This document shows positions 12,121 through 47,400 of a DNA stretch of 64,000 bases, piece after piece. The notes below the pieces were generated by a model. That model was given only the letters and a program-made list of their open reading frames with translations. It did not search any database and had not been told where the DNA came from. A program made the translations under genes and the position numbers. Origin of the DNA: Clytia hemisphaerica. Lineage: Eukaryota; Cnidaria; Hydrozoa; Leptothecata; Clytiidae. Where the stretch lies: the NCBI GenBank assembly GCA_902728285.1, contig CACVBU010000824.1:203307-267306 (forward strand), in the 5' to 3' direction. The first letter of the stretch is position 1. The number at the start of each line of letters is the position of its first letter.

Positions 12121-12139
12121 TTGACCAGAAGAAGCTGAG

Positions 12140-12775
12140 GTAGACGATGATACAGTCAAGAAACGTTGATTGGATGAAGTAATGATAGAGGATGAGTATC
12201 CTTGACGAGTTTTAGTTGATGTTGATGCAGTCGAGAAATGTTGATTGGATGAAGTAATGATAGAGGATAGGTATCCTTGAAGAGTTGTAGTTAACGTTGA
12301 TGCAGTCGAGAAACGTTGATGCAGTCGAGAAACGTTGATTGGATGAAGTAATGATAGAGGATAGGTATCCTTGACGAGTTTTAGTTGATGTTGATGCAGT
12401 CGAGAAATGTTGATTGGATGAAGTAATGATAGAGGATAGGTATCCTTGAAGAGTTGTAGTTAACGTTGATGCAGTCGAGAAACGTTGATTGGATGAAGTA
12501 ATGGTAGAGGATGAGTATCCTTGACGAGTTGATGTTGACGTTGATGCAGTCGAGAAACGTTGATTGGATGAAGTAATGGTAGAGGATGAGTATCCTTGAC
12601 GAGTTTTAGTTGATGTTGATGCAGTCAAGAAACGTTGATTGGATGAAGTAATGGTAGAGGATGAGTATCCTTGACGAGTTGATGTTGACGTTGATGCAGT
12701 CGAGAAACGTTGATTGGATGAAGTAATGGTAGAGGATGAGTATCCTTGACGAGTTGATGTTGATGATGTAGATGT
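12140..12775. repeat. 75-bp minisatellite, about eight units
   Basis: The string AACGTTGATTGGATGAAGTA recurs at exact 75-bp steps (12481, 12556, 12631, 12706) and irregularly to the left. 75 is divisible by three, so the array keeps one reading frame on the minus strand and expands the Ser/Thr-rich tail of the broken gene there. Confidence 0.9.
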
Positions 12776-13629: not shown

Positions 13630-13739
13630 CTGGAGTATGTATGATTAAAAAATCAAAGATTGGTGAAAAGCATTTTTGTCTTTATTTGGATTATTCTTAC
13701 ATTCCTAGCTTTTTTGAGAGTCAATTGAATCGCCTTTGA

Positions 13740-16635: not shown

Positions 16636-19600
16636 CTCTAGCCCAGTTTCATCAAGCTTTCCTTTTCTCCGACCAATATTCTTTGCAGCGGTCCATTTTC
16701 CTCCACATACGTAATCAGAATCTTTCTAAAATACCAAAAAGATTGCATCTACGTTCAAACATGTTCAAAATAATTGGTACATGAGCCTTTATATCTTATG
16801 AATGCTGGATTACTTTAGGTAATGTATATAACAGTTTGGTCAGATACTTACCAAATCTTGTTTCTTTTTGGTTGGATACACAAGTTTCAAATAATCTTAG
16901 ACACGGTCGTAATTTACAATGAATTTCTTATTGTAATATGAATTACGCCTACGACTGAAATGAATAAATATGTATTTTTTCAATATGTTCGCAAAACCAA
17001 AGATGACATGTGGCTTTCTAGTACATTATGAATAAAATTCTGCCAGAAGCCGAAAGGCTCGCCAAACGAACTGTGTTCGCTTAAAAAGCGGAAAAATTAA
17101 AATTGTAATATATAGGCAGTGTAGACTTTATTTACGTAAAACCTAAAACCTATTGAATTGAGTTGAATTTTTCAAAAAAAGGGAATCGCTTTTATTACAT
17201 ACATTTCCCCGGACTTGAAGCGATACAAATTTTAAAGGATACATACTCTTCCCTTTCTAATAGAGAGATCGTTCATTGTATCAACAAAAGCTTTCGCTGA
17301 AGATCCTGGCATCCGTTTCCGAAAGGAACCCCAGAAGATGAACAAGTCTTCTTGCACAATGGTGTTGAAATTTTTCGGCGATGTAGGCCAATATCCAGAA
17401 CTCAATATGTTATTCAGATCCAGGGCGGATTGTTGGTAAGAGCAGCTGGAGTAAATAAAATCCCACTTGTTGAAGCAAAACCTGCCTTTGAGACCAACTA
17501 CCATCACCATATCGTTCAATGGGATTTTTTCACACCGACCTTGCATTACAAAACAATTACAGCAAAGCACATTTTTTAATTCGATAAGTCGTGCTGAAAT
17601 TAAAAGGAAAAAAGGAATAACATCCTATAACAGGTAAGTTCGTGTCATAAAGGTCAAAAGTTTGTATTTCATACATATTGGGAACCTTAAAACATTATAA
17701 CTGATTTGCTGAATAGTTAATTTTGTGTTTGAAATCATTACTTGTAGCGCATATCTCACCATCTATTACTACTTCATTGGTTGACAATGCCAATAATTGT
17801 TCTCCAACAAACCCAAGGCGGTCATGGAAAGGATGATCATAATGCACTTGTTCGTCGTAGCCAAAACACAAATATCCACAAGTTCCACAAAGGATAGTTG
17901 CCGAGATTTCTGTGCATCTACCACACTTCTCAGTTGGGCAAAACTTTTTTATCGAGGAACAAAGCAAGTCTGCCACTGATCCTCTGTGTCCATCATCTTC
18001 TGAGTCCAGTTCTTTTTCTTTCGTTCCTTCCCTTTTTTAAAAATAATTTTGATATTGATATTCAAACTGTATTAAAATTAACCTTAAAGGAAAAAGTTAG
18101 AGAAAGATCCCAGAAAGATAAAGGTTATGATATTGAAAGTCAAACAATTTGAATCTCAAAGCAACATATCTACAAAGCATAAATGATTCGGTAAGAACAT
18201 TGTGGCACAACAATTATTGAGCAGAAAAAATAACCAAGTAACCAAATAACAAAGCATACCTGTAGTTTCAAAAATGTTTGCAAGGCTTCAGTGCATGCTT
18301 CAAGTTCATTATCAAATTCTAGTGAAATAGACATTATATCGATATTGAGAGTCTGAATAAAAAATTACTTTAAACCTTTTCTATGTCTTTAGGAAAACTT
18401 TCAGAGAACTATTTATAAATTGAACATCCAAAATAGTTCATAAAATATTCTAAGATAACTTGTTGATAATATTACGTGTTGGATAGGAATTTAGATTTTT
18501 AATTGCCATATTTCAATTCCTGGTACTATATAATATGTATTACACACGTATCAAGCTGTACAGAGTTGTAGAAAATATTCATTTCTTTTTAAGGTTCATT
18601 TGATATGTTAAGTTTTTTAATTTTAAAAATTACCATGAATCGGATTGTTGTCTTCAGGGGTTCCAACTTCAATTTCAGCAACCAGTTCCATTTTGCTTCT
18701 AAGTTCTGTTTCAGCTGAAACTTTGTCAACCATAAAATCTGTTACTTCTAAAAATGTACAAAAAACAGTATTTTCTCAATGTGGAAAATTTAATAGTTTT
18801 AATAATATGAATATTATAATAAACAGCACTGAAGAAAACTGAAGCTAAAGTACATTTTTGTATAAATACGTTCCTGTATGGGTGCCTTTCTTCAGCACGA
18901 TTAGCTCAACAATTGAATAAAACTCCCTGAAACATTGATTTTTCTGGACACAAAAAAGCCTCTCATAAATTTCATTACATAAAAGTGTATACTTAAAATA
19001 AAATGATGACCCTCTGTCTTTCTTCGGGCTTGGGACCGGCAGGTGTAAAAAATACACGATTAGCTCAACAATTGAATAAAACTCCCTGAAACATTGATTT
19101 TTCTGGACACAAAAAAGCCTCTCATAAATTTCATTACATAAAAGTGTATACTTAAAATAAAATGATGACCCTCTGTCTTTCTTCGGGCTTGGGACCGGCA
19201 GGTGTAAAAAATACAACCTGGCGACATTAACCAACATTAAAATTAAAAATCATTAATTAACTCAGATAACCCATTGCATTGAAAACTATTAAAATATAAT
19301 TTCAACATAAGAAGGTCCAAACTTTTGGGATTATTATTTGGTTAGTTATTATTTTATTCTCTTTGCATTTTTAATTAACCTTGGTCGAATAGTAAAGGAA
19401 GAATACGTTAACTTCATCAGTAGTTTTCTTCTTTCTTTTTCTGACACGATTTGTTTTCACCTTATAAATTCTTTTACCACAGGAATCATATTGGTAAGTG
19501 ATTTCTTGTGGTTTCCTCTTCGTTTTAACACGAGGAGGCAGAGCCAAATACTTGCCCAGTTCATACTCTGTAACCTCTAAGATATCATTTTCTTTAACTT

Positions 19601-26912: not shown

Positions 26913-28651
26913 ATGATATATGGCACGCGTACGAAGATTCTAAATTCTTCTTTTGAGATGGCCTGTCGTTTGTGCAAGGAGCCATACAAGGCTCGATCCG
27001 ACAATCGATGTAATTTGTTTAGCTACCAGAAAAAGCTAGACGGGATTCCTCAACTGTTGCTAAAAGACATCGGTGTTGAAATCACAAAAGAAGGCGGTAA
27101 ATCAGACAGTATCTGCAGGAACTGTGGTTCTGGGATAAAAAGAATTAAAGCCGCTTTTGAAATTTTGGACAAATGGGACCTGAGTGTTGAGTTGATAAAT
27201 AAAACTGTACAGCGAAAGCGACAATTAGAAAACGACACTGCCCGAGGAAGTAATAAAAGAGGTGAAGAAATAGAGGAAAAAAGAAAAAGAGTGGAAGAGT
27301 CCAGTGAAGACACTAACAGTATGATACCAAATAAACATGTTGATCCTGATAATACAGTATGTATTTTTACAATTTTTTGTAATACTCGAATTAGTTTGAA
27401 TCAAAGGTAAGAGCTGAAAAAAAAATTACTTCGAAGTTCAGCAAAAATATCCTTTTTATTCTGCAAAAAAGGTGTATCACACCCCTGTCTCTCAGACCCA
27501 ATGAAAATTAAATTTACGTAGCAGTAAAATTTTCTTTTTACACAGAGTGCAAAGAGTGCAGGAGACTACAAATACATATCAGATTTTTGCGAAGCAGAAG
27601 TCGGATCATTGGAATCAAAATCAAGTATCAATAATACATATGTGAAATCATTGATTAATTTAGATGACAAGAAGCTATTTCGTGAAATCGAGAAGTGCTG
27701 TCCTGTTCTGGTTGCGGCTTTAAAGGGAGCAGTTGGAGAAAAAAAAGCACATTTAATTGGACCTCTCTTAATAGTAGTTGGAATTTTATACAAGTCAAGA
27801 TATTCTGGGAGTCGTGCTTGCGTTATAACTCATAGAATGGACCAGCTCCTAGTCGCTGCAGGTATTTCAGTTTTAAAGGTGATAGTAGGAACTAAAGGAA
27901 TTTTTTGTTGGCACCCTGCTGAGTATACTTTAAACTTTAATACCCTATATCAATGCTACTCATGCCTAAAATTTTACTTAAGAATAAAGTCGGATGGCTA
28001 CCTTTTCAAATTGCTTTTATTTTATGGTGTTCTCGAGGCTCACTCATCATACAAAATTGTTCGAATAAAAATTCATATGCAGTGCAGGACGATTTTTCGG
28101 AAACTTTAGTAATATAGGGACCGTTTGTTTGTTCATTCGCAGGTGCAAAAAAGAAAGTTTTCAAATGGCTTAACTGTTTCGCAGTGACAAATTCGTACTC
28201 AACAGCAAATCGAAAGCACAAACAAATGGCTAAAATTCATGACGAAAAGGTTTTAAAATGGAAAAAGGAGATCGAAGACGCATGTAAGCAAATAATACAA
28301 GAGAAACCTGGCATTACCAAAGAAGAGCTTATAGCAGAACTTAAGACTCGGAAGGTGCTAGAATTTCAGGTTCGAAATATTTTTTAACGTGTATAAAGAT
28401 TAGTTGATTTAATGGAAATATTTGAATCCTTTAAAATGTTTATTTATGACTGTGAGTTATTTCGATTATTAAAAATGTTTTCTCTGAATTTAAAAAGGAT
28501 TATCTTTTTGCAGCTCGTTGGGGACAACTTGGACATTTCACAACATTCAAGACACCAAGACAAGGAAAACAAAAATGACAGTAAACATTGGTTTCATACA
28601 AAAGAAGCATTCGGCGAGCCATTTGTACGAAATATGTGCTGTTCTTTGCCA
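26913..28651 (+). CDS. ZAD-like zinc-finger protein with DUF6589-like region, spliced
   Basis: Exons: 26913-27356 (ATG at 26913 or, more likely, 26958), 27546-27861, 28143-28369 and 28514 to about 28651. All junctions are GT-AG and the first four exons join in phase. Exon 1 starts MACRLCKEPYK and has CRNC about 50 residues later, a C..C/C..C pair as in ZAD zinc fingers, then a basic, charged linker. Exon 2 carries CCPVLVAALKGAVGEKK, then CVITHRMDQLLVAAG. Exon 3 reads FKWLNCFAVTNSYSTANRK. Exon 4 begins LVGDNLDIS and contains KHWFH. From memory this order (genomic arrays of CP.L...L.GA, THRMDQLL.AAG, VGDN.D) matches cnidarian proteins annotated with DUF6589. The frame becomes doubtful after HWFH, and no C-terminal half was found, so the gene may be truncated by the repeat array starting at 28.68 kb. 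Likely a domesticated or decaying transposon gene. Confidence 0.6.
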
Positions 28652-28679
28652 GGTGAAGGGTTTTTCTTTGAAAGTGACC

Positions 28680-28990
28680 AGCACATCCCATTTTCTAGGA
28701 TAGATTGTTTTCTTCAAATTATCTGCTGTTCTTATTCAGGAGAAGATATTATTCATGAACAGCAGATAGTATTTTCTAGATGGGGACATCACCAATGAAC
28801 AGCAGATAATTATTTCTAGATGATGACGTAATACGTTGAACAACAGATCGTATTTTCTAGGTCGGGCAAAACCCACCAATGAACAGCAGATAATAATTTT
28901 TAGATGATGACGTAATCAGTGAACAGCAGATCGTATTTTCTAGGTCGGGCAAAACAGATAGATTTTCAGCTAAGCGAGCCAGCAAGCGGT
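28680..28990. repeat. Array A of a bipartite motif: GAACAGCAGAT with TTTCTAG
   Basis: About six units of 40-50 bp each begin GAACAGCAGAT (or GAACAACAGAT) and, after about five bases, TTTCTAG, for example at 28758, 28796, 28839, 28883 and 28921. An inverted ATCTGCTGTTC lies at 28721-28731. Spacers alternate between a GATGATGACGTAAT type and a GTCGGGCAAAAC type. The array starts in or just after the last recognised exon of the ZAD gene. The same motif forms array B at 34.94-35.35 kb. Confidence 0.8.
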
Positions 28991-29710
28991 ACAGCAGATT
29001 TAAGATTTTGTTTGTAATTTACTAGGCATACCCGATGTTGCCAGAGGACAGAAAGGCGAAAAATCACCTTAAATAATTGTCTAAAAGCACCAAAATCTTA
29101 ACTTTGATTGAAAACCATTAGTTTTCACGATATATCGACACATATTACAACAGGGAGGGGGGTTCGGTACGAAAATCTTCGACATAATGAGTACTAGAAA
29201 GGTTTACGAGAATTTCTTGCATTTGTATTTTAGTCTATAATTTATGGGGCCATTTAGACATAGAGACCACCCAATTTTGGTCTTCTCAGGACCATTTTTT
29301 TCAATGGTTTTTTCGCAACCTATCATTAAGAGAAATGTGTATGTTTGATAAAATCATGGTAGGATATAAGAATCGGTTTATTTCAGTCTTGTTTAATATT
29401 TCATAAAATTAGTCATTGATTTAGTACAAAATAGATTACAAATTTCCTTAACTATAATTTGTAAGGTGAGGAAATTATATTAAATAACATTTAAGCATTC
29501 TAAACTTTTCAGAGTTTTCAGGGATTCATTACCTTAGGGAACTGTTCTCGCTATGCGAGGCTGTACAATAAACGATTTTTGTCGATTTTATTTTCGCGGT
29601 TGACACCCAATTTTTGCCGAAATTCTCTTGTTTTCCTAGCAGTTCTGAAGATCTTTAGTGAAAATCGTATTTTGCGGAGCTAATGTCTGCGAAAATTAGC
29701 TCCCATAAGG

Positions 29711-29829
29711 TACTTTAATCGTAGAAATTTTAGCGAGACTAATTTTAGCGTATATTAGCGAGCCAGGAAAATCTTGATTTTTTCGGATTTATTTTATTAG
29801 CGAATCACGATTTTGCTACGATTAAAGTA
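29711..29829. mobile_element. Short palindromic MITE-like element
   Basis: The ends are a perfect 14-bp inverted repeat, TACTTTAATCGTAG and its complement, and the arms remain partly complementary toward the middle (AGCGA and TCGCT blocks). Length is 119 bp. Nothing coding. Confidence 0.6.
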
Positions 29830-29869
29830 GTCCACGTTCAACCCACTGTCGATAAGGAGGACCTCCATT

Positions 29870-29960
29870 TAAGAAAATTTGAAAAAATGCTATGGACTCT
29901 TCCCGAAAAACCTGTTCATGGGGGATGTAGGATATTTTATGCAAGGGCTTTCGATAACCC
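29870..29960. mobile_element. Diverged end of the GGGCTCTTCC MITE family
   Basis: ACTCTTCCCGAAAAACC, then GTTCATGGGGGATG, resembles the terminus of the complete MITE at 47609-47829. The second terminus was not found, so this is a fragment. Confidence 0.45.
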
Positions 29961-32155
29961 TGAAAAAATCTTGAAAAATGGCCATGTCCAATGGCTAAAT
30001 TTAATGAAATATCCAGGGATAAATGATTGAAAAAATAAAATATTTGCTAATGATAAAATTCTCACGAAGACTTTTAAATGTTCTGACGAGTGAATCTGTT
30101 GACAGTTTGATAATAAAAAATCACAATCTTCACGATCCCAATAAACAACTTCTCTTTTGACCAAAGACTGATCTTTCCAAACCTAAGAGGTAGAAAATGG
30201 AAAATCATAGCCATGAAATTAGGAGTATCTTAAAAAAAGAAATTTTTGCAAAGATTTCATTTAGAGAATGGTAAAACAACAGAGGGAATTTCATTTTGCA
30301 AATGGCTTAAAAAATAAAAAATTTATGAAAGGAAGTTTTCTGTTAAGTGTTAGAGTAGTCTGAGTCAAAAAGAAGAAAGTGAAGTTTATTATTCCGTTTC
30401 TTTCTCTCTAAGATATTTATATTTCACCATTATATTTGTTAGCTATTTTGTCCAAAATCCTTGGGGATAGGCATTTTTAAAGGTTAGGGAATGCTAAGAT
30501 GGGGGGGATCAGACCCCTTTCCGCACTATGGCCATAAGAAAAAAATCACTCCAGTAGCTTTCAATGTGACTGAATCGAATCTTATGGTGGTGAATATTGC
30601 TTCATAAAATTGGTGAATAAGGATCTCGTAATTCCTTCTTTTACTTGGACGAGTTTTCCTCAACTTTTCTTGGCCAAAATACCTTAAAAATATAAAGGAT
30701 GATTGTTTGAACGATAAAAGCACACATTGAAACGCCTCTTCGATTTATTTGTGCTAAAGGCATGTCCTCCTTTTCATGTCTACCCTGGCAGAAAAGAACA
30801 TATATCACAGAAAGTCCTTTTATAAGGATCCAACCAGAGATTCCACATTGTTCTGAATAAGTCTTCATGGTGTTGCAGGAAATGGTACCCTGTTGATATC
30901 GTAGGCCAATGGAAGTAATAAGAAAAGATGTCTTACCTGTGACATTTGTTTGCACAGGCATCCATATTGACAGGCATGATTTGAAAGACTTTGATGTTTA
31001 CTAAGCCAAATTTCTTCATCAAAGTGGTTCATTTTTAATCTGTTGTCAATTTTATAAAAGTTTTGATACATAGATTCTTAAAATAATTTTTCTAATCATA
31101 AAAAAAATTGTACATGACAAAGAACTGCAAAGAACTTGAACACACGTTTTTTTATAACAGCGTTTAATTTTTTGACACCTTTGAATGCTCTTAACACATG
31201 TTCTTATTTTCACCATCTTTTGTGAGTAATTTTATCCATTTTCCTCAGAAACCAGGTGATTTCAAGTCTACAAAAGTTAGCAAAGCCTTAAAATGTTCTT
31301 AGCTAAAGAATCAAACTAATTTGAGGATACAAAATATATGAAGCTTTAGCTCTAATCTGTAGGAATTATGATAAGAGGAAAGTTCAAACTCTTCAAAAAT
31401 ATGGCAATCCAGCATGGTAATTTGTGTAATATATTTCTGGAAAAAGAAAATCTTCTGACGACTAGCTTCCAAAAATTTTTTGTAAAATTAAGTACTTGAA
31501 GGAGCCCATCCTTTTTACTGACAGATTCAAATAGCAGATATTATTGAACCATGCCTATTCCTGGACTGTGGACCAGGCATCACCCTAGACTTGATTCAGT
31601 TATACAGTGGTAGGGGAAGTTGATATTTGAAAATATTTTGTAAAACACTGGTTTTGTTACATATTTTAATGAGAAGACTTTGAATTGGAATACTTTTTCA
31701 AGTGTGTTCTAGGGCGATGGCAAGTTACCTCCTTCAAACACTATACATACAAAAACACAACAATGGAGGTACGCAAAGGTAGTTCTGAGGAACCAGGCCA
31801 TTCTCTTTAGAAAGGCAGGGCAACATTTATTGGTGGCAAAAAAATGCACTTTTTCTAGTTTTTTTTTTCCAGTGAAAAGGCTGTAATAATTTCAGGAGGG
31901 GTAGCATTAGATAACCAGTTGCTAAAAGAGCATGAAAAATGGCCTGGGAACACCTGTTAAACTACACAATGCGTTTAGCAACAAACAAATCCAAGTCAAA
32001 CCCAAGTCAAATCCAACAGAATCCAAAACAACCAATCCAAGCTAATGCAACCTTAATAGACACAAAATCAACTGAAATGAGTCAACAAATAAGATCAACA
32101 CAATGTCGAAACAAACTTTCTATACAGACAAATAAAAAGACATTGAAATAACAAC
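29961..32155. other. Intergenic; one possible minus-strand exon
   Basis: No clear gene. On the minus strand, 31038-30940 reads DEEIWLSKHQSLSNHACQYG, then CLCKQMSQ with a good donor (GTAAGACA) after CAG; support is the splice site only. Other ORFs lack motifs. Confidence 0.25.
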
Positions 32156-32159
32156 AATA

Positions 32160-32434
32160 CACTTTTTTTTTATAAGAACAATTTTATAAGAACAATGAGG
32201 CTCAAAAATGCCAAAAAATAAGAACAATTTAAGAACAATCCTGAGCCTGGAGTTGCTGAGTTTTAGGTAAAATAAGGGCCAAATTAATGAAATTAGGGTT
32301 CAAACCCAAAAATATCCCCAAATTTGCCCTAAAAATAAGAACAGGATAAGAACAATTTGAGGCTCGAAGTGCCAAAAAAATAAGAACAGCCGAGCCTCAA
32401 CAAAAATTTACTGGTTCTTATAAAAAAAAAAAGT
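32160..32434. mobile_element. MITE, CACTTTTTTTTATAAGAAC family, copy 1
   Basis: The left end is a CACT plus T-run followed by ATAAGAACA; the right end is the complement, GGTTCTTATAAAAA then AGT. The interior repeats AAGAACAAT and GAGGCTC blocks. A second, diverged copy with clearer TA flanks is at 57879-58101. Confidence 0.7.
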
Positions 32435-32649
32435 AATGACAAAAAAGCAATAGTGAGAAAAATGAAAACTGAAAACAAAATTCCATAGAAACATTTCAAC
32501 ATCCTTTCCCTTCTTGCATTCTTTTTAATTAAATAAATCTTTTTAAGGTGGCATAAAACAGAACCTGCAAAAGTACTCTGACTCTGATGATAGAGAATAT
32601 TTCATTTTTTGTGAACAATCTTTCTGAAGCCAATGTTTTCATAAAACAT

Positions 32650-34250
32650 AAAAATAGATGCTGCAAACGTACTTAAACACTGCCTCGACAGAGACGATTT
32701 AATTTTTGTAAGCAGATCTTTTAGAAAACATTTTTGATAGAAAAATAGAAGCTGCAAACGTACTTAAACACTGCCTCCGATAACAGAGACGATTTAATTT
32801 TTGTAAGCAGATCTTTCCCAACCCCCTGTTTTAGGTACAATTATCAAGAAAGATTCTCAAAACAAACTCTACATCTGATGACAGAGTTGATTGAATTTTT
32901 GTAAACTCAAGGAACAATTATTTTTACCACTGACGACAGAGACCAAATTTTTGGTAAGAACCTTTTTGCACCACCTCTTGCTAAGAAAACATGAAAAAAA
33001 TTATGCAAAGGTTCCACTTAGACCCTGCCTCTAATAAAAGAGACCATATATCCAATATTTTGTCTACAGATCTTTCCACTGCTATTTTAATTTGAAGAAA
33101 TGAAATATAGATGCTGCAAACGTACTTAAACACTGCCTCTAAAAAAAGAGACGATTTAATTTTTGTAAGCAGACCTTGTTAAAACTCTTTTTTGAAGGAA
33201 AAATAGATACTACAAACGTACTTAAACACTGCCTCTGTTAACAGAAACGATTTAATTTTTGTAAGTAAATCTTTCCCACCTCCCATTTTTTAGGAAAGAT
33301 TTAAAAAATGAACCTTTCAAATTGAATTTTTATTAATTGTCATTCTAAGAGTCACTCTTTTAGAAGCAAAATTTAAATAGATGCTGCAAACGTACTTAAA
33401 CACTGCCTCCGATAACAGAGACGATTTAATTTTTGTAAGCAGATCTCTCAGAAAACACTCTTTTGATAGAAAAATAGAAACTGCAAACGTACTTAAACAC
33501 TGCCTCCGATAACAGAGACGATTTAATTTTTGTAAGCAGATCTTTCCCACCCCTTAATTGTTTTTGGGAAACACAATTAGAATGACATTTTGCAAAACTA
33601 CTGAAAATTAACAATTATTTTTTACAAATGACAACAGAGACCAAATTTTTGGGTAAAAAAAACACCCACTCTTGGTAGGAAACATGAAAGAATTTATGCA
33701 AAGGCTCCACTTTTAATAAAAGAGACCATACATTTCATACTTGTCTACAGATCTTTCCACTGCTATTTCAATTTGAAGAAATGAAAAATAGATGCTGCAA
33801 ACGTACTTAAACACTGCCTCTAAAAACAGAGACGATTTAATTTTTGTAAGCAGATCGTGTAAAAACACTTTTTTGGAAGGAAAAATAGATACTACAAACG
33901 TACTTAAACACTGCCTCTGATAACAGAAACGATTTAATTTTTGTAAGTAGATCTTTCCCACCACCCTTTTTTAGGAAATATTTAAAAAATGAACCTTGCA
34001 AATATATACATGAAAATTGGCTGAATTTTTATTAATTGTCATTCTAAGAGTCGCTTTTTAAAGCAAAAATTAAATAGATGCTGCAAACGTACTTAAACAC
34101 TGTCTCCGATAACAGAGACGATTTAATTTTTGTAAGCAGATCTCTCATAAAACACTCTTTTGATAGAAAAATAGAAGCTGCAAACGTACTTAAACACTGC
34201 CTCAGATATTTTGAGACGATTTAATTTTTGTAAGCAGATCTTTCCCACCC
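32650..34250. repeat. Array of about ten hairpin-forming units with an Sm-like AATTTTTG block
   Basis: Ten closely related units start with CTGCAAACGTAC or CTACAAACGTAC at 32661, 32752, 33114, 33210, 33384, 33481, 33794, 33892, 34081 and 34178. Each runs about 62 bases to GCAG or GTAG then ATCT. The two halves are complementary in blocks: AGAT with ATCT, CTGC with GCAG, TTAAA with TTTAA, and CTC with GAG around a variable loop. AATTTTTG lies just inside the 3' outer arm in all ten. More diverged units occur between them (near 32865, 32920, 33010 and 33690). A higher-order repeat of about 685 bp is visible: units 3 to 6 with the diverged unit before them repeat as units 7 to 10. No ORF is conserved across units in a way the hairpin does not explain. 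Confidence 0.85.
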
Positions 34251-34939
34251 CCTTGTTTTAGGAAACACAATTAGAATGACATTTTGCAAAACTACTGAAA
34301 ATAGTCTACCTCTGAATATAGGTCTCTGTTGTGTAAATTGGTGTTAAATCTGACCTCTTTGAGAAAAAAGATTCAAAAAAAAAATGTTTACCTCGAAAAA
34401 AAATCAACACACAAAATAAAGTTTTTAAACAAGAAGCTGGCTTCTATTTATAATAAGCCCTCGACGCGTACAAAAAAGCAATAAAAAAGTACCATAATGT
34501 ACCATCAAATTGATTGAAGACAAAATACTTTCCCAATAAATAAATATTTAAATTTTGAAGTGACCATCGACCAGATAGGAGCTCCCATTGACCATATAGA
34601 TTCTTACTCCTCGTGGTTTTAGGCGCGCAAATATTTTTATCTTGTTTGTAATGAATACAGGGGGTTTAGGATAAAACAAAAGCGGTCAAGAAATTTTTTA
34701 TAACTTAAAAAACAAATAATAGGCATCAAAAGGCTACCAACAACTAATATTGCTATCATTATCAACCAAAAATAAGTGATCGAAGGACAAAATAATGGTT
34801 ATTTTCTACTAAAATCTTTCATGAAAGATTCAACTTTACCCCCGGAAATATTTTTTCATTGTGCGCGGGTCAAATAGCTTAGATGTATTCGTTCTATTCT
34901 TCTCGCTGGCTGGGCGGTAGGCGGGACAGATATGGATAA

Positions 34940-35345
34940 AAGTAGAAGGATATGGTAGAACAGCGGATGAGACGGGCGGGGATAAAGTGGAACAGCAGAT
35001 AAGAAGGGCGGATAAAAGTGGAACAGCAGATGAGAAGGGCGGATAAAAGTGGAACAGCAGATGAGAAGGGCGGATAAAAATGTAGAACAGCAGATGAGAA
35101 GGGCGGATAAAAATGTGGAACAGCAGATGAGAAGCGCGGAGGAGAAGGGAGAACTGCAGATCGAAAACATTTTCTAGGAAGAGAGAAGAAGTAGATTTTA
35201 GCCGAACAACAGATCCAAATTTCTAGGAGAAGGGTTTTCTAATGTAACAGCACATAGATATTTCTAGGAGTAGAGATTTCAAAAAATTTGAACAACAGAT
35301 CCAAAAAACTAGGTTAACTATGGTCGAACAGCAGATATTCAAAAA
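34940..35345. repeat. Array B of the GAACAGCAGAT bipartite motif
   Basis: The left half (34957-35140) is a regular minisatellite of about 32 bp with the phrase GAACAGCAGATGAGAAGGG then CGGATAAAA. The right half holds looser units in which GAACAACAGAT or AACAGCACAT is followed by TTTCTAG or ACTAG (35150, 35204, 35247, 35291). It shares its key words with array A, 6 kb to the left, and lies just upstream of the P-element-type gene. Confidence 0.8.
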
Positions 35346-35560
35346 AAGGTCGTCGCCGGATGCTTCTGTAATATACATTTTTTTTGTAAGGCTAAAAAAA
35401 TTCATAACAATTATGACAACTTAATTTTGGTCAACATATAAAGATTCTCTAATAAACAATTCAAGGTAAATTGTAATGTGTTGGGTCATCCTATGAATGG
35501 AAATTCAAATTAGTGAAAATCAGAATTTTGGGGATTATTGATAATCTTTTCTCATTTTAC

Positions 35561-38535
35561 AGATGGTGTCTCAGCATATGCAAAGCGTCACCTGCTGCAT
35601 ACCGTCAAATGCCCGACAAAAATTTAAATTTTTTACAGCTGCCTTGTGAAAAAATAAATCAATTTTACGGATACCACAGGAGGTTTTAACCCTGATATTC
35701 TCAAGAAACTTGCAATCGAGGCTGATATCAAGAATATGTCAGAAAAAGATAAGTACGTTATCATTGCTTTTGATGAGATGAAAATCAAAAGTGGGTTGGT
35801 TTACCACAAAGGTTCTGGTAAGCTCATTGGCTTTACTGAAACGGGAGACTTGAACCAGGAGTTTGCTCATCTCGAGAGATCCAACAATACTAAATCAGGT
35901 CACCAAGAGTCATTTGACCTCAATCGAGACATTGCAACACATGTCAATCGGTATATGGTGGGAGGAATTTGCTCAAGCTGCTCTTCCCATTTGGCTATTT
36001 CGCTACAGCTGGTATGACAGCTTCATAATTGTATTTAACAACAAACGAAGCCATCTGTGTGCTGACAGCAATGGATTTCAAGGTAAACATAGCAAAAAGC
36101 TCATAATATAATGTTTTTTCTACATGGTGCAATCTATGGTGCAAATATTTTCTTGCTCACAAGTTCCAAGATAAAACTACTAATGTTTTAACTGTGTGAG
36201 AGTACTAAAAAGAGTTTACATTATTGTGCATCTATATATTATTAGTATAACGCGTATGTCATTTTGTTTTGTGTTTTCTGCTTTCTGTCTGTGTGTCACT
36301 TTCAATTTCACAAGCAATGTTTTGTTCTCTATTTGTTTTGATTGACAGATCGGATAGAGCCTGGTTTAGACTTTATTCAGCCTTTGTTTTGAAATTTAAG
36401 GCCCATCTACATTTAGTAATTTTAATTTCTGCCCAGCTTTGCCTGATCCTGTTTTTCTCTTTTCTTTTGTTTGAAATGTTTTCGAATGTATTTAACGATC
36501 GTATTTATTAATGACATTCGAATTCTTTTCAAAACAAAACAAGTTTTTTTTATTATAGAAAAGAACATTTCAAATGTAAATCAAAACATAAAAATTAAAA
36601 AGTTTGTCCGTTCGAACAATAACAGCATTCAAAGGGCGATAAAAAGCAAGAGAAGAAATAAGTCCATCTCTTTCTTCATATAAAAAGATTCAAGTGGTTG
36701 ATACTGTTAAAAACTGTGTACGTCATTTTATTACATGTTTAAATTCGAAAAGTTATGACAAGGGTTTAAAAAAAGTAATTTAGAATTGACTTATTTATCT
36801 TTTCAAATCTGATAAAAACGGGGATAAAAACAAAGTTGCACTATTCTTTGTGGCTTCCCCGCTTTTTCCTAAAGAATCGTCATTTTTACATTTCACTCCT
36901 CTTTACCATGACATGTTCTCAAATTGTCGAAAACTGCACGGCGTATTTAATGCGAGCGAAGCGAGAAAAAGATCTCCTGGGGAGGGTTAGAGTCAAACTT
37001 TGAAGATATCTTTTTGTTCATTTGATCGTTTTTTTAAGCCAGCTTCAACATCCAAAGGACTTTTAGTGCGTTCAGCTACAGCTTAACCGGCGTGCGACGC
37101 CGGGTACCGGCTAGTATTTTTATAAAGATCTTTTTACTTTCATTAAAGGTTCGGGCCTTAGTCTCCGATGGTGCTGCAACAAATCGTAAGATGTATCGAA
37201 TCATGGCAAAGGGTTTGAAAATTTTCATTGGGGATTAAATCAACATGGTACCCTTCTGTTAATGCCGTTTGGGCATTGATTTTATGTTTGTTCCTTTGTG
37301 TAACTGATTAATCTTCTTAAAATTATTGCTTTGTATTTATATTGTCTTTTGTTGGTAGATTTCTTATAACTGTTCCCCCTTTATGTCATTTATTTCGTCT
37401 CGTGTGTATTAGGTTTAGTTTTTATTACCTTGAGAATGTGTAATGGTTATATATTTTTGTATTGTATTATGATCGCCATGGGAATTTCTATGTTATATGT
37501 GTAAGTTATAAATGTTCAGTCTTGTGGTGTTGTCTAAATGTTGTGTATTGTAAGTCAGTTATGTGCTGTTCCAACGCAGTGTTCTTTAGTGAGTATTTTC
37601 TGTATATGTTATATTTTTCTTTCACTTCGTTATAAGTTTACAGTTCTCTATTTCATTTATTGTTCTATTTTGTATCTTTCTAAGCTGCTTTGTATAATAT
37701 TTGCTCGATTTCTGAATTATTTTGAATTGTTTTTTTAGCCGTCAATCTATGTTGATGACGGGTAAAGAAGACTTATAAATATTAATTTGTTAAAATGTTT
37801 GACTGGCATTTACACTTCTAATATATTTCTTTTCTGATGCTCCTCATTTATTGAAGACAACAAGGAACTGTTTTTAAAATTCACTTGCTAATAAGAATAC
37901 CAGAAATCTTCATGTAAGAATTTGTAAATTTAAATTTGATTAAAAGAATTATTATTTTATACTGTCAGTTTTTTTGAGAATGCTATTTTAGTTCGAAAAC
38001 ATTTTTACCATTGAAATTCATTCAAAGCATTAACACATTTAACATTTTGAAAGTATTTATGTACAGATTTGTGTCCAACCTTGCTGTAAAATTTTCACTA
38101 TTCTTTTATCTTCAGCTTAAAGGTCAAGATATCTCTTGGCAGCACATTGTTCGAGTTGTGGAAGAAGACATGGGTACAAACTCTGAAGGACTCTTCAAAA
38201 CAGATATTGATGGTCTCAGAAAACTCAAACTTACTGATGAACACATACATTTAACACCCAGATCAAGAATGAAGTGAAATTAGCTGCTCAGGTAATACCT
38301 GTGTTTTAATATGATTTGTTTGTCCTTCTACGTTCTTACAAATTAAAGAAACCTGAAGAAACCGCTCTTAAAAGTTCAGTCATCAGCAATACAGTGTTGA
38401 TCTATTTTTATCAGAAGGGTGCTACATCAACTGACATCAAAACTCTATTTTTTATTTAGCTATTGAGCCAAACAACTGCAAATGCCTTAGAAATCCAAGG
38501 ACAGCACGTTACAAAATCAACAAGATTCTGAACCA
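35561..38535 (+). pseudogene. P-element / THAP9-type transposase gene remnant
   Basis: After an acceptor (CTCATTTTACAG, exon from about 35562) the plus strand reads WCLSICKASPAAYRQMP, then, across a shift near 35675, GGFNPDILKKLAIEADIKN, YVIIAFDEMKIKSGLVYHKG and GETG-like DLNQEF. A second shift near 35985 gives FGYFATAGMTA, then a TAA, then LYLTTNEAICVLTAMDFK to a donor at 36080. Exon 37149 onward reads VRALVSDGAATNRKMYRI. Exons at 38119-38298 (LKGQDISWQHIVRVVEED) and 38461-38535 (SQTTANALEIQGQHV) follow. The FDEM...GLVY and VSDGA..NR.M blocks carry the first two catalytic aspartates of P-element transposases. At least three frameshifts and an in-frame stop make it inactive. No THAP domain was found upstream. 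Confidence 0.7.
36231..37114 (+). mobile_element. Candidate non-autonomous Helitron inside the P-type gene's intron
   Basis: The right end has a perfect 7-bp hairpin at 37087-37103 (CCGGCGT, loop GCG, ACGCCGG), seven bases, then CTAG followed by T: the classic Helitron 3' signature (hairpin, then CTRR, inserted at A/T). The proposed left end is TC at 36231 preceded by A, followed by TATATATTATTAG and ACGCGTATGTC, the type of 5' end I recall from invertebrate Helitrons. The interior has GCGAGCGAAGCGAG. The 5' end is less certain than the 3' end. Confidence 0.55.
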
Positions 38536-38959
38536 AAATTAGGTTCTTCCAGTAAAATATAAGGTCATAAAAAACTAAAATAAAATCTATATACACACTT
38601 TGATACATTTTGATAAAAAGGTTGTTATGTGTTGGGATGTGTTATTTGTAATAAGGGTTATGTTGAGAGATATTTGCGGAAATAAACCTCAACTTTGTTA
38701 GCAAAGTTTTGATTCTTTGGTTTTCCTTTTGGTTTACTCACTTTCCTCGTCAATTTTTTTGCGAGATTTCTTTTTCCTTGCAACTTGTTTCATAAGTTCG
38801 ATGAAACCTTTGACAAACGATCATGCTCTAATGTCTATCCATTTTGAAATTATTTGTCTCCTTAGACTATCTTTTAAACTCTTTCCACCCTCAAAATCCT
38901 TTGTTAAAATCTCCCATCAATTATTAACACCATCACTTTTCTGATACGTTCCATCAATA

Positions 38960-39760
38960 TATCCCTCAGATCTTCAGATCGATATCTTCGAAGGAATTCT
39001 ACGGTCAAAATACCCTTTACCAATCCTTCCACTCTACATATGAAGAGATAAAAACTGTCATTCAGTTGAACAAGTCCGCCTCAATGATGCTTTCAATAAA
39101 TTTCATGGCAACATTTGCTGTTAACTTTGTTAGTTCAACATTTGACTTTAAGAGTTTAAAGTATTTTCTCATCATTGAAAAAATTATGTAGCCAGCTGAA
39201 TAACGTAACTTGTTGTTCTTCAGTTGTAAGCTTGACAGATTCATCTTTCTCTTTGTAATTTTCCAATTTTAGTATTTCAGTCATGATGTTAAGGATCAAT
39301 GAGTTTAAACAATAATTTAAATTCTTCTGTTGTTGTTTTTGAGCAGATCACGTCAAAGGTTTTTGGGTTTCTTTCTTAGATTGTTAAACATTCAATTCTC
39401 TCAAGAATTCTTGTTTATCATTCTCTTGGGTCAAATTTCTTTTACTCATCGATCAATAAATCTTGTCAACAATGTTTTACTTATCGTTTTGTATTCATTT
39501 GTGTCTTTCGTTGATAGTAAATCAATAGCCATATCTTGTACACGATTACCAAATATTTCAAAATTTCCAAGATCTATACAGTTGATCTTATCAGTTGTAA
39601 TTGCTGTTATTCATTACATGTTTTATGTTTTTCTAGGTTTAGTGTCAAGAGAGAGTGAGAGACTAAATTCAAGTACCATTTTCAAATATACATACCTTTT
39701 GTTGTACTTGGCTCATTTGTTTTTGTCTTCCTCTTAGGTTGTTTTCCCGTCAATGTATTA
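38960..39760 (-). pseudogene. Transposon-derived gene remnant, family not assigned
   Basis: Three minus-strand pieces: about 39755-39690 (KRKTKTNEPSTTK with donor GTATGT), 39612-39448 (DKINCIDLGNFEIFGNRVQD), and 39290-39062. The last piece reads DESVKLTTEEQ in one frame and NKLRYSAGYIIFSMMRKYFK in the next. L...E...LRY.AGYI..... is a motif I recall near the C-terminus of several cnidarian transposon-derived proteins. Frameshifts and stops separate the pieces. It faces the P-type gene tail-to-tail and could be related to it or to the ZAD gene family. Confidence 0.4.
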
Positions 39761-39879
39761 CCCGAATTAGATCAAAAGTTAACCATTATACTGTGTTATA
39801 AGTACAACACTGATTTTTGGATCATTCTCTGATATTGAAATACTAAAAATAGCTTTGAAGCTAGTAGCATGAAATAGAG

Positions 39880-41165
39880 TCATCAACAAAACAATCTACT
39901 CAGAGCTTTGCATCATTGACGGGCTGATCTACCGCGGAGACAAGATTGTGCTATCCAATAAACAGGAAACAAATGATCATCCAAACGTTCGAACGAAGAT
40001 ACTAACTAGACATTGCACACGAGGGAAACCCGGGAGCAACAATGATGAAGAGGTTTATACGAACAAGAACAAATCGAAGAAGTTGTGAGGGGTTGTCTTT
40101 CATGCCAGGCCGCAACAGACCCAAAACACAGGAACCCAAACATAGCATCTACACCACCGGAAGAACTATAGCAGAAACTCTCGGCAGATCACTGGGGACC
40201 AACTCCTGACGGATTCCAACTGCTAGTGATCATCAATGAGCTATTCCGATATCGTCGAGGGAAAAGGCGCAGAACAGAACATTAAAGCATTCGATGCAAT
40301 CTTTGCAAGACACCGATACTGAAAACGCCTAAAGACTGACAATGGACCACCATTCAATATATCAATGAAAACCACCTTCTGCAAGAGTACTTCAGATGGG
40401 CAGGTATCGATCACCAACCAACCAACAGTGCAGAAGACCCCGAAGCCATTTTCCATGAAAATTTGTCTCAAGGTTTGGCACACACACACAGTACTCATTG
40501 AGAATGACAACCCAAGGGCGGAGATACACAAGATACTTCAACTTAATCGCGAAACACCACAACCAACGACCGGCAAGGCACCTGCAGAGCTGCTCTTTGG
40601 ACGCAAATTTCAAAGCCGACTACCGCGAGACCGAAGACATGCCCAAGGAGGGACATAGAAGACGCAAAGCAACACGACCAGGAGACACAAAGAAAACAAA
40701 CTGAAGCAAAGGACAACAAGAAGTACGTCAAGCCACGCAACATCAAAATCGACGATCAAGTCCTCCTGAAGCAACTCAGCACAAAGACCGAGCCTCCGTA
40801 TGACCCGGAACCTGACACAGTCACATGCATCACATGACACTAGATCACAGCAACCAGAGCACGCCAGATGTTCACCAGAGATGCCCCGAAATAAAAACAA
40901 TTCACACAATGAGAGAAACCAAACTACAAGAACCTGCGACTCGCTGACAAAGATTCCAACACTTGGGACTGAGACGACGAAACAGCAGAACAACAAGCAG
41001 CAGAAGTTCAGCAACACATCAAACAATCACATGTTGAAGAAGACCAACAAGTCGACATTCAAGCCATTCAACTTCCAATCGGTCGAACGAACAGAGCACG
41101 TCGACCACCAGCTCGATTCAACAACTACGAAATGAACATTTGAAGGGGCAACGAACGAATAAAAC
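39880..41165 (+). pseudogene. Ty3/gypsy-like retrotransposon pol remnant (integrase region)
   Basis: Reading across several frames, 39895-40340 resembles the zinc-binding N-terminus and core of a Ty3/gypsy integrase: an IDGLIYRGDKIVLSN start, a C..C pair in CLSCQA, a DHWGPTPDG block, and KTDNGPPF at about 40336-40360. The rest to 41165 is richer in GC and AC than its surroundings and continues in broken frames. No LTRs or primer-binding site were recognised. At least five frameshifts and stops are present. The element is inactive. Confidence 0.6.
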
Positions 41166-42189
41166 GCAGAGACACAGGGAGATGTATACACTCCTCGAAA
41201 CAATAACACTCATTTAGATCACACGATGCAGCCTAATGGGGATTTAAAGTATAGTTTTAAATCAGAGTTTAAATTTATTTCGGCACTATACGCCCTCCGC
41301 CCTTTAGCCTTGGATGTCTGGTTCACATTCATTCTGCAAATTAGCCACCCTGTCCTATCGGGAAACCGTAACCTTTGATGCTTCTTTCGCAAAGCTGCTG
41401 AGTTCAGACTGGTGTAAAAATTTTTTACCGCCCTCCCGCCCTACAGTTACAAAGGAAATGGTTGCAGGCAACTCTTTTTTATATACTGTTTGTAAAGGGA
41501 CGATTTTACCCAAAACATATATTATGAGTAGTTAGCCAATAATTCCGCCAAACAATTAATACATACTTGTTTCGTATAATTCCCATCCTCCGAAAGTACA
41601 AGTTAAACTGCACGTATTTCTAGTTTTTCTTTTCTCGCTTTTTTTGCTTCTTTTAGTTTTTTTGATTTTTCTAGAATATTTATACGATGTAGGTTCTAGC
41701 ACGTATACATTTTCAACTGTTCAGGTACTCCAGCGCAAGCAGTGTGCATGTGTAAAATCTAACTTTGTCATCTTTATATTTTAGACTAAATCTCAAATAT
41801 AATAGAAGCGTAAAGCCAGATTGACGCTTTTTAGCGAGGTATGAGTCAGACCAAAAAAGATTTGGACACCCTCCCCTTTTATTCAGACTTCCCGCCACCG
41901 TTTATTATGTTTTAAAAAAAATTCGGAGCCCCCTTTTATTTGAACCTCCCTACTATTCGGGATCTTAGAGTAGCATCTTCTTTGCGAAAATAGTAATAAC
42001 CCTGTAAAATTCTGGCAGTGTATCAAAGACATGTATCCTTCAAATAAGTCAAAAAGTACGTCTCCATCAGTCAACAATTGTGTGAATTTTTTACCAATGT
42101 TGCTGTCTCGTTAAAAAATCGAGCTTTTAAATTACGAGACTTTGTACACTAAAAGCTGAAAATATCACAACAAACCAAATTTTCAGCTT

Positions 42190-42770
42190 CAAATATGTCA
42201 GTCGAATTTTTTTAGAGAAGGAATTAAAATGTCTTAAACGAAAATCAGCCGCTGGATGGGATCACTTACCTCCATGCATGCTAGAAGACTGCGTAAGAGT
42301 CATATCAGGTCCATTTACACACCTGATAAATTTGTTATTAACATCAGGAACCGTCCCAAACGACTAGAAAATCGCGAAAGTCACACCAATACACAAAAGC
42401 GGTTCCATTGACGATTACAAAAATTTTCGCCCAATTTTAGTTCTACCTGTACTTTCAAAAATACTAGCTGTGCAAACCCAGTTCATCCAATACATTGAGA
42501 ACAACAACATCCTCTCTAAACACCAATTTGGCTACAGGAAGAAGAGATCAACCGAGCTCACCACTATACTTCTAGCAGACAACATAAAAAAAGAAATTGA
42601 CAGTGGGAAACTTGTCGGTGCAGTATTCGTTGAGCTTTCAAAAGCCTTCGATACAGTTATTCAGTTCTGTTCGAGAAATTGAAATCCAACTGTGTCGACA
42701 AAAGTTCCCAAAACTGGTTTAGTGATAACTTCTTCGCTTCTTCAACCGTAATCAATTTGTTGTATTAAAT
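42190..42770 (+). pseudogene. CR1/Jockey-like LINE reverse transcriptase fragment
   Basis: The frame includes AAGWDHLPPCMLEDC, then VTPIHKSGSIDDYKNFRPIL, HQFGYRKKRSTEL, and VFVELSKAFDTV at 42615-42655. These are consecutive reverse transcriptase blocks in the correct order and spacing. An in-frame stop lies near 42366 and a frameshift follows the SKAFDTV block, after which LFEKLKSN continues in another frame. The catalytic FADD block and endonuclease are absent, so this is a 5'-truncated or internally decayed copy. Confidence 0.75.
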
Positions 42771-43517
42771 TGATGTAAATCACGAATGGAAAGTGTTATA
42801 TGCGTGGTTCTGCAGGGGTAGATTTTAGGAAAAGTATTTTAAATTTCCTAACAAATAAATTATTTTTTACACTATAATGGATCTATTTGTTTCCGCCGTC
42901 CGTTCAGTTATCTACATTGTTTATATACTTTTAGATGACATACTTTTGGATGAGTAATACCTTATGGATGGCCGAAGAAAATACCTACTAAATTTTAATC
43001 TTTTTAACAGTACTTATTTGCTGACTTACAATGATGAATTTCAGGATACAATACTGTGTTACAGCATTTATATGTCTTTTATTTTATAATCCCTTTTGGC
43101 TGGATCTGGGACCATAAAAAATAAAATTTTCAGGATGAGATATCTTGCCCTTGGCACTTAAGGGGTTAAATGAAACTAATTTTCATTTGCCATTTGGAAT
43201 TGAAAAACAAAATGTAAAATAAAATTGTTTTCGGAAAAGTTTTTTAGTTCAATTAAGATACTTGTTTACAATAGATAACAAAAAAAGAATTAAAGGATGA
43301 ATGGAATATGTTTTTGAACCTTTTAAGATATTTTTTTAAGATTCAATTGCTTGATTCGTTAAATTCAAACGCTTTATGCCTGGATTTTTTTTTCTCCAGA
43401 GGTCCTGTACATAGAGGGATAAAATATTTTACAATTCCTTTTAACTTCCACTAAAATAGAGAGAGGAAAAATTTGAGAAATTTGAGAGGCTATCTCAAAA
43501 TACAATGGAATGCAATA

Positions 43518-44497: not shown

Positions 44498-47400
44498 TTA
44501 CATTTTCATCATAAATGAAAATCCCACAGCCAGTGCCATTACCATATTGAAGAAACTTGCGATCGAGGAAACGCTTCCAGATGATGATTCGTTCAAGTCG
44601 AAGTTACTTTGAACGGTACGACCGTTGATAGGCTGTGGCGGTCGGTAGTTGTCGGACATTGAAGTTTTTTCGTCAGCACTTGCCAACAATTTTCTGAATT
44701 CCTCGAGCTGTTGATGACAAAGTAAATAAGTATTCTGAGGTCCCAAATAATAGAGGGTCCTACGACAAACACTGGTGGATCTAAAACAATAGAGCAACCA
44801 CGTCGAGAAATATAATGGAGTGCAATCCTCGTAAAAAGATACTGTAAGTCAATTAAAAGTCACTCCATCGTATTTCTTCGACGTAGTCTTAAAGCACCTA
44901 TGAAAAAGGGGGCAAACTTTTTGGAAAAAAATATGGGGGATAGGGTTGACAGGATTAAATTGAATAATAAGAATAAAACCATGGGGTATTGAGCAACTCT
45001 TTCTATGAATAGTAGTAGCTTAGTTACACTTTTAAACTCCCACATCAGTAATGGTTGCCTTGAATCTATTTTTTTCTATAGTTTTCAAAGATGCGTATTA
45101 TGCGCAGGCAAAAAAGTGCAGTCGTGCGAGAACAAGTATTTCACGGGGAAGAAAAACTGTATTCCTTTCTGCTACAGTTGGTCACGACAGCAGGTCAAAT
45201 TTTTACTTTCGCTATAGAATAGCCTTCCTTAAATATCAATACGCTAGGGGAAAATTTGCTTTTTAGAAAGGAAAAATCCATATTTCATCCCTTTTGATGT
45301 AAAATGTTATTGTTTTGACGTCTGTTAGACGTTGTTTTGTTGTCTTTCCGACGTTGTGAACGTCTGATTGACGTCGAAACAACATCGCGTGGTTTGACGT
45401 ATTTTCAAAATATTTTTGGCATCTGATAGACATCGAAATAACGTTATATGCTTTTTAAAAGGACTCTTACCTGAACTTCATTGACGTGACTTATCTTGCT
45501 GCTGACAAGATACTTGACAATCTCAGAGCAAGGCGGAGTCGTAAAAGATCCATAGTACATGTAATATTTTTCAGCTGCTTGATCTATCAATAAATCTTCC
45601 AGGAGGAAGGCAGGTATGTTATCTGTTTGACCGACTTTCTTGGCTTTCAGCAAATTATTGACGATGGAATCTAGTTTGGCATTTCTGGTGTCCTTAACCT
45701 AGGGAGATATGAATTGGTTGATTTCTGCTTTTGTTTACATGGAGACCAAAAATTAAGATTCAGACGATCAATGGTAAACTATTTTATCAGGGCGTCCTTT
45801 ATGGCAATTTCATTAATTCTCCTCTATCTTGTTCTAGATTAATAATAATGCTAGATGAAATATCATACCTCAAACAATTGAGCCCAAATCAACATACGAT
45901 CAGTTGTTGCAGATTCATCAACGTTGAGAAGGACAAGATGGAGCTAAACAAATAAATATTCTTCATATTAAAAATAAATCATGACAAAGAAGAATAAAAA
46001 ATAATAAAAATAATAATAATAATGTAAAATTGGCATTATTTCATCATGCCATTATGGTAACTAAATAAATTACCAAAAATAAAATACAAAATTTGGCTTT
46101 ATTTTTTATTTGTCATCAACCTTAGCATTTGAATCTAAAGGGAAAGCTGCGAAATTTTATCATTTTGGAAAGTTAGGAGCAAAGGCCGGTAAATATATGG
46201 TACCTCTAATGGATATTCTTTGCCATCAATTGTATGCTCTGATCCTTTTTTACTGTCGCTTCCCCAATGAAAATGTAGCGATGAGAATCTGTACGCAGAG
46301 TCTAAGTTTGGGGAAGGAAGGAAAATAGAAAACAAATAAATGAATTTAGGAGACTGTTTCAATCATTATAATGAAACCACAAAAGGGAAGTTATCGTTAC
46401 CAGGAAGATACCATAGTCAGTGGCTACCTGGCAAGGGGTGCAGGGGGTGCAGTGCATCCCCTAAAAATATCTGAGAGGGGTGCCAAAAGAGTTTTTCAAG
46501 GGGGCACCAAAATTTCGTTGATGTTTAATTGGGCGATTTGGCGTGCCCTTCCACACGTTAATAGCGCCTTTTATAAAGTGTAACGTTAATCTTTTTCACC
46601 TGCGGCGCTTTTTTTATTCTGTGCTCTTGCATCCTTTTTCTTGAGTTTTTCCGAAACTGCTACCAACATTGAATCGCGAAAAGCCGAAGAAAGAGAAGTG
46701 TTGTGTGTATCCACCAGGAGTTGAAGAGGATGCTCGCCCCAAAAGAGAGAGAACCAAAAAAGATCGAAACTTGTTAGTACACGCTGTAGTTTTTGTGGTC
46801 TTATGCTGACTAACTTTCTCCTTTTTGGGTGCTCTTTTAAGGGGGTTCGTCCCGATCGGAAATGCTGATTTCAAAGTTGACGTTGAACGACTACCCATAG
46901 GTTGACTTTTACTTTTGGGGAATCTTTTTTGTCATTAGGGGATTTCCCTATCCGCCACAAGCAGTTATTTGCCGCACCCAAATTAAAGGAAATTTAACAA
47001 AGCTCGCCGTAAGCGCTCGCCGTTTGTGATCAAAGTGACTTTTAAGACTGAAGATATGTTGACCTTTTGGAACAAGGCAAAAAATTGAAATCTTGAGCAT
47101 AATTTGTACTTTTGTCAGCCAAAATGCAAACAAAAACTTTAAACGTGATTTTCTCGATTTTTTTTAGAAACTCTGCAGAAGACAGGCCCTCAAGCATTCA
47201 ACCTTTTGACTTGAAATTGAGATATTCTTTATATCCATAAAACGGAGGTTCCCTATAATTTTCTATTAGAGATAACAAAAATGACGTCACTGTGAGCATT
47301 TGATTTTTTTATTAATTTTGACGAATCAGTAATTGTGCACTAAAAATGGCATAGCTCAGCGAAAAACGACTCAATGTCTTAGAAGTTTGTAATGAACATC

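Follow-up and report, generated by a model that had tools for sequence, protein, structure and literature searches.

A tandem array of conserved hairpins in Clytia hemisphaerica, possibly a minus-strand cluster of small-RNA precursors

The array and its surroundings

The window analysed here, a 64-kb stretch of Clytia hemisphaerica DNA, is AT-rich (31–43% GC per 2 kb) and contains a tandem array of ten hairpin units with near-identical arms. The ten units alone occupy positions 32650–34243; when diverged relatives are included, the array spans 32554–34360. The units are grouped as five pairs with a spacing of 91–97 bp, their left arms lying at 32660, 32751, 33113, 33209, 33383, 33480, 33794, 33891, 34080 and 34177 in plus-strand coordinates. 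Each hairpin is about 72 nt long, with a stem of 29–33 nt per arm and a terminal loop of 4–7 nt in the predicted folds, and the linker between the hairpins of a pair measures 19–21 bases. At a larger scale, the block 32652–33608 resembles the block 33375–34302 with 84% identity. All ten units proposed in an earlier note on this DNA are present in the sequence, as are the variants that it described: CTAC at 33209 and 33891, with the partner GTAG at 33891 and GTAA at 33209, CTCA...TGAG at 34177, and GTCTC/GAGAC at 34080.

On the minus strand, unit 1 (32650–32721), which has a short loop, displays a minimum free energy (MFE) of −18.2 kcal/mol and a z-score of −3.25, and scores 98.4 bits with model R1, for which it was a training sequence. 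Unit 2 (32741–32816, minus) reaches −20.0 kcal/mol (z −3.47). Unit 3 (33103–33178, minus; −19.4, z −4.04), in which an A-U pair of the basal stem has become G.U, has its block copy in unit 7 (33784–33859, minus; −19.7, z −3.79). Unit 4 (33199–33274, minus) is of the CTAC type, its plus-strand GTAA giving G.U on the minus strand; it has the weakest fold (−15.0, z −2.68), and its basal CTAC helix stays unformed in the 1.8 kb context fold described below. Its block copy, unit 8 (33881–33956, minus; −18.1, z −4.29), carries CTAC/GTAG and attains a basal helix probability of 0.08 in that context fold. Unit 5 (33373–33448, minus; −22.0, z −4.02) and unit 6 (33470–33545, minus; −20.0, z −3.55) have their block copies in unit 9 (34070–34145, minus; −22.6, z −3.82) and unit 10 (34167–34243, minus; −17.1, z −3.24), respectively. 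The loop-closing pair of unit 10 is A-U, where the others have U-A or U-G.

Local alignment adds a further six or seven relatives that have diverged, all on the minus strand; they lie between the pairs, in front of them and perhaps also beyond them. A covariance model of 76 positions, built from the ten units and run over the whole window, recovers three of them, with E-values of 7.5e-5, 0.001 and 0.058 over the window. The first of these, unit D (32992–33075; 28.2 bits), has kept its hairpin (own fold −19.6); A-U pairs of its central helix have been replaced by G-C and by G.U, and its pairs comprise 14 Watson–Crick, five G.U and two others. Decayed unit A (32554–32623; 24.1 bits, E 0.001) has lost half of the central helix by deletion, and decayed unit B (32845–32909) scores 18.0 bits, with an E of 0.058 over the window and 0.0019 over the region. 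The model misses decayed unit F (33687–33756), which is the block copy of D and has lost 11 bp within the hairpin. Truncated unit C (32925–32967) is seen by local alignment only, and decayed unit E (33579–33656), also found by local alignment, scores a non-significant 10.9 bits (E 5.8); a weak local alignment, and nothing else, points to a possible decayed unit H (34273–34360). Among the 47 matches of the model in total, the remaining 34 include unit E and a plus-strand self-match at 34074–34149, and none is convincing (best E 0.02). No convincing copy of the array was found elsewhere in the 64 kb, the best outside match covering 46 bases of the 76-position model at an E of 0.02.

About 115 bp from the first diverged unit of the array lies an element of ~285 bp with terminal inverted repeats (32155–32438; arms 88% complementary), probably a short DNA transposon; similar stretches occur at 57882–58098 and 28008–28071 (76–82% identity). 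On the plus strand, 1.4 kb from the array, an open frame (35658–36014) encodes a TNP-like RNase H domain of a transposase (PF21787), which we take to be of the THAP9/P-element type. A CxC3 cysteine cluster of the KDZ-transposase associated kind (PF18804) lies at 17232–17624 on the minus strand, and a reverse transcriptase fragment (PF00078) at 42368–42679 on the plus strand. A carbonic anhydrase gene (PF00194) occupies 44600–49688 on the minus strand, with exons at 49320–49688, ~46200–46300, 45447–45698 and ~44650, some of them placed by motif. A position of the array inside this gene was rejected, the last recognisable exon (~44.65 kb) being some 10 kb off. An open reading frame at 26901 has no Pfam match. 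Farther out, a 75-bp tandem repeat (12144–12763; 88–93% matches) sits inside a long Ser/Thr-rich open frame on the minus strand, the GC skew reaches 0.34 in 12001–14000, and two-copy tandem duplications are found at 18896–19215 (159 bp, 100%), 63637–63944 (140 bp, 97%) and 7340–7645 (152 bp, 97%).

Folding of the hairpins on the two strands

The predicted fold of the array fits the minus strand better than the plus strand. MFE values range from −15.0 to −22.6 kcal/mol on the minus strand and from −6.7 to −16.2 kcal/mol on the plus strand, with the minus strand better in 10/10 units; the corresponding z-scores against shuffles are −2.68 to −4.29 and −0.15 to −2.99. In every unit (10/10), 0 or 1 of 200 dinucleotide shuffles folds as well as the real minus strand. 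Compared with 4000 stretches of 76 nt drawn at random from the window, the raw energies rank in the best 1–12%, indicating that one hairpin alone is no more than moderately unusual and that the weight rests on repetition and arm conservation.

The kinds of base pairs offer a further level of detail. Of the 210 pair cells on the minus strand (21 pairs in ten units), 183 are Watson–Crick, 23 G.U, none A.C and four other; with the three diverged units added (13 units), the counts become 216, 31, 0 and 12. Since the pairs were taken from minus-strand folds, this tally is to some extent circular. The C.A mismatches of the plus strand, present in nine of ten GCCTC stems, in GTAA of 33209 and in the CTCC loop stems, are G.U pairs on the minus strand. 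When the fixed G.U pair (alignment columns 25/49) is excluded, eight pair positions show G.U and none shows A.C (two-sided sign test, 0.008), one of the eight being the loop-closing pair, read off the loop sequences. Energies, z-scores and the presence of G.U without A.C all point to the minus strand, and the plus strand implied by the earlier note is wrong.

The same asymmetry bears on a role of the palindromes in the DNA itself, an option raised in that note. The units could then form cruciforms or serve a DNA-binding dimer as paired half-sites. The units are imperfect palindromes, and the CTAC/GTAG change is symmetrical, as would suit such a role. However, a cruciform or duplex site would not distinguish the strands, yet wobble-type pairs take the form of G.U on one of them and in no case that of A.C, and we regard a DNA-level function as extremely improbable.

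When the 1.8 kb context is folded with a span of 400 bases, the central helix on the minus strand exceeds a probability of 0.7 in 7/10 units and the basal helix exceeds 0.9 in 4/10. Units 3, 5 and 6 (left arms at 33113, 33383 and 33480) are unformed in this fold. The mean central-helix probability amounts to 0.66 on the minus strand and 0.43 on the plus strand.

Conservation of the arms and covariation

Both arms contain a stretch that is invariant in 10/10 units, UUACAAAAAUUAAAUCGU (18 nt) in the 5p arm and CAGUGUUUAAGUACGUUUG (19 nt) in the 3p arm, whereas the apical loop, the basal stem and the linkers vary. Counted by alignment column among the ten units, variation affects 0/16 internal-loop, 5/34 paired and 8/9 apical columns. 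The internal loops make up 17 columns (UU, AAAAA, C, AGU, GUAC, UU), and the 17th, outside the 0/16 count, is invariant as well; a single-base bulge of the basal stem varies.

A younger block duplication of ~0.6 kb, with 32995–33610 aligned to 33675–34305, displays uneven divergence. Differing sites number 1/160 in the arms, 6/48 in the loops, 2/36 in the basal stems and 29/353 outside the hairpins, the latter with 52 gapped columns in addition (p = 1.8e-4 for arm versus outside and 6.8e-4 for arm versus loop). The sole arm difference is held by unit 9. Four other copy-pair comparisons, which share copies and are not independent, give 0, 1, 1 and 1 arm differences of 80, along with 23/99, 23/101, 21/78 and 35/101 differences outside the hairpins. 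The arms look constrained in these comparisons of copies within one genome. Units D and F, which are copies of each other in this block duplication, differ at 9/77 sites plus indels, among them the 11-bp deletion, so that arm conservation is not common to every unit.

These patterns can be weighed against a repeat without function. A palindromic seed would have expanded into a local satellite or into part of a mobile element, and the similarity of the units would reflect recent duplication or gene conversion. Block duplications are evident in the array, the ten-unit covariation is weak, and a transposase exon (PF21787) lies 1.4 kb away on the opposite strand. However, the arms are much more conserved than the loops between them; a conversion tract would take the loop along with the arms and homogenise both, so that gene conversion explains the pattern poorly. 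Moreover, near-identical arms persist in copies whose flanks have diverged, D and F have decayed inside the same block, and no convincing copy exists beyond the array within the 64 kb. We count a repeat without function as one of the two main alternatives to the reading proposed below and regard it as somewhat doubtful. Membership of the array in the neighbouring transposon finds no convincing support: a terminal-repeat check of 28500–43000 returned 21 inverted pairs, of which several weak ones enclose the array and the transposase and none is convincing.

Covariation between the arms is real but thin, and R-scape-type significance is not claimed. Among the ten units, one pair is altered on both sides (G-C to A-U), and its two carriers are block copies, which reduces them to one inherited event. 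The count of two-sided pairs is matched by 193/500 shuffles, and the covariation score and the percentage paired by 18/500. Addition of D, A and B raises the number of pairs altered on both sides to three, in a 13-row alignment that is fitted to the structure and omits the plus-strand self-match 34074–34149, which inflates a 14-row count. Above the four basal-most pairs, all changes at pairs among the ten units still give a standard minus-strand pair. The proposal that paired substitutions reflect selection on the fold thus holds as a direction, given conserved arms and kept pairs, but its two-sided covariation shrinks to one event in ten units.

Possible nature of the transcript

Our best reading of these sequence features, which we put forward tentatively, is a polycistronic cluster of small-RNA (microRNA-like) precursors on the minus strand. 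One primary transcript of the minus strand would extend across all hairpins, an RNase III pathway would cut it at each hairpin, and one or both arms would then guide an Argonaute protein. Copy number would raise the dose, as in the multi-copy microRNA cluster mir-430. The 5p arm would be the likelier guide, since its variation starts only at the 3′ end, whereas the 3p arm of one unit is altered in its 5′ portion. The linkers of 19–21 bases would leave no space for a promoter per unit. MicroRNA clusters have conserved arms along with variable loops and flanks, and by analogy a single strand for all units, arms without variation, a loop and linkers that vary, close pairs and member decay together make the pattern of a microRNA-like cluster.

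According to PMC10582106 and PMC13137736, a canonical animal microRNA by MirGeneDB criteria has at least 16 of about 22 nt paired between the arms. Further marks of this class are 20–26 nt reads that come from both arms, with a 2-nt offset and a uniform 5′ end. The best 22-nt window examined pairs 14–15 nt in each arm of 10/10 units, so that the array may work like a microRNA cluster, yet is not classed as canonical microRNA. As for the other hallmarks, the arms are more conserved than loop and flanks (1/160 versus 6/48 and 29/353, among copies of one genome), and where a canonical microRNA has 8 nt or more in its loop, the folds here predict a terminal loop of 4–7 nt, although the distance left between the arms after processing would depend on the cut sites. 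The stem of 29–33 nt per arm is also shorter than the Drosha optimum of ~35. Further points against a small-RNA cluster are the full conservation of the internal loops of both arms, which exceeds what one guide strand needs, the loss of the central helix in 3/10 units in the context fold, and the weak covariation in ten units. The earlier suggestion of tandem non-coding RNAs or microRNA-like precursors is supported as a direction, through arm conservation and kept pairs, but the pairing stays below the 16 in 22 that define a microRNA.

Like the array, the mir-430 and mir-427 clusters consist of tandem hairpins on one strand, with invariant arms and with loops and linkers that vary; birth and decay of units are seen in the array. 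It differs from mir-430-type clusters in pairing only 14–15/22, in its short stem, and in the invariance of both arms and all internal loops. PMC10368294, which deals with Hydractinia embryonic microRNA candidates, lists mir-430 and mir-427 as highly multi-copy clusters.

Pairing that is too sparse for a microRNA favours a stem-loop domain, and the invariant internal loops of both arms (0/16 columns vary) suit recognition by a protein. Both observations could be explained by a minus-strand lncRNA or UTR with tandem protein-binding stem-loops, which would stay uncut and whose structured cores and variable linkers would form a multivalent platform resembling the Xist A-repeat. As described in PMC5742192, the Xist A-repeat comprises a 26-mer present 7.5 times in mouse and 8.5 times in human, with U-rich linkers between the copies, and silencing efficiency is linked to repeat number. 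The likeness lies in a structured core that is repeated and joined by variable linkers. In contrast to the 26-nt core and U-rich linkers described there, the array, from a different taxon, has far longer units (hairpins of ~72 nt) and AT-rich rather than U-rich linkers (37% T versus 34% T across the window). In addition, the decay of several units indicates that copy number is not strictly maintained. Such a platform, the other main alternative, strikes us as unlikely. We give still less credence to an undescribed class of tandem structured RNA, in which at least ten hairpins would be recognised via three invariant internal loops (two asymmetric), without cutting, and copy number would set the dose; this we judge distinctly unlikely.

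It is highly improbable that the units are individual small RNA genes, each with ends of its own, whether Pol III transcripts, Sm-class snRNAs or spliced-leader RNAs. TTTTT directly 3′ of 7/10 units on the minus strand is a possible Pol III stop, and AATTTTTG, which the earlier note likened to an Sm site, is present on the plus strand and is indeed kept by all ten units. The Sm site has the consensus RAU4-6GR on the transcribed strand. In 10/10 units the base after AATTTTTG is T and not the purine of this consensus; likewise, AATTTTTGT lies on the plus strand in 10/10 units with the final purine absent, and the fold favours the minus strand. The 8-mer is also common in the window (24 copies on the plus strand, 11 of them outside the array, and 14 on the minus strand), and diverged units of the array hold three further copies, two of which are followed by G. 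The resemblance to an Sm site is unsupported, and identity as an Sm-site snRNA or spliced-leader RNA was rejected on account of strand, missing purine and frequency of the 8-mer. Independent Pol III genes were rejected for want of promoter space, linkers of 19–21 bases being too short for the external promoters of separate genes, and no internal A/B box was seen by eye.

Rfam 15 gives zero matches in the window at the gathering score, which speaks against the small-RNA cluster and separate genes alike; the seven sub-threshold matches in 32400–34500 have a best E of 0.56, and none is coherent. A tRNA scan of the window returned none. H/ACA snoRNA, iron-responsive element, SECIS, hammerhead and stem-bulge RNA were each considered by eye on the basis of their motifs, and none fitted. 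An exact search of viral contigs with one 23-mer, an exact search of prokaryotic contigs with one 19-mer and a distant blastn search of phages found nothing, in collections that say little about animals. A full-text literature search with six arm sequences gave no match, and a literature search by topic led to no described array that we recognised as being of this kind. Nematode stem-bulge RNAs and Y RNAs resemble the array in their single hairpin with conserved internal loops; the array has TTTTT after 7/10 units and UUAUC, a loop motif with a role in stem-bulge RNAs, in the loop of 5/10. It differs from them in its varying loop (8/9 columns), its lack of an Rfam match and the missing promoter space per unit.

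If transcribed, the array would constitute a high-copy RNA locus with signs of purifying selection and without an Rfam match. PMC9923473 reports that cnidarian microRNAs turn over fast and likens them to those of plants, most of which are lineage-specific; this would fit the lack of matches for the array. With hairpins just below the usual pairing rule, the locus would offer a test of whether this rule misses real small-RNA genes or, alternatively, of whether cnidarians have tandem stem-loop RNAs of a different kind. The 3p arm of the array (32660–34243, minus) contains GGCAGUG, which matches the miR-34/449 family seed of bilaterians; this resemblance is probably a coincidence, as the motif lies on the other arm and is altered in the unit at 34080.
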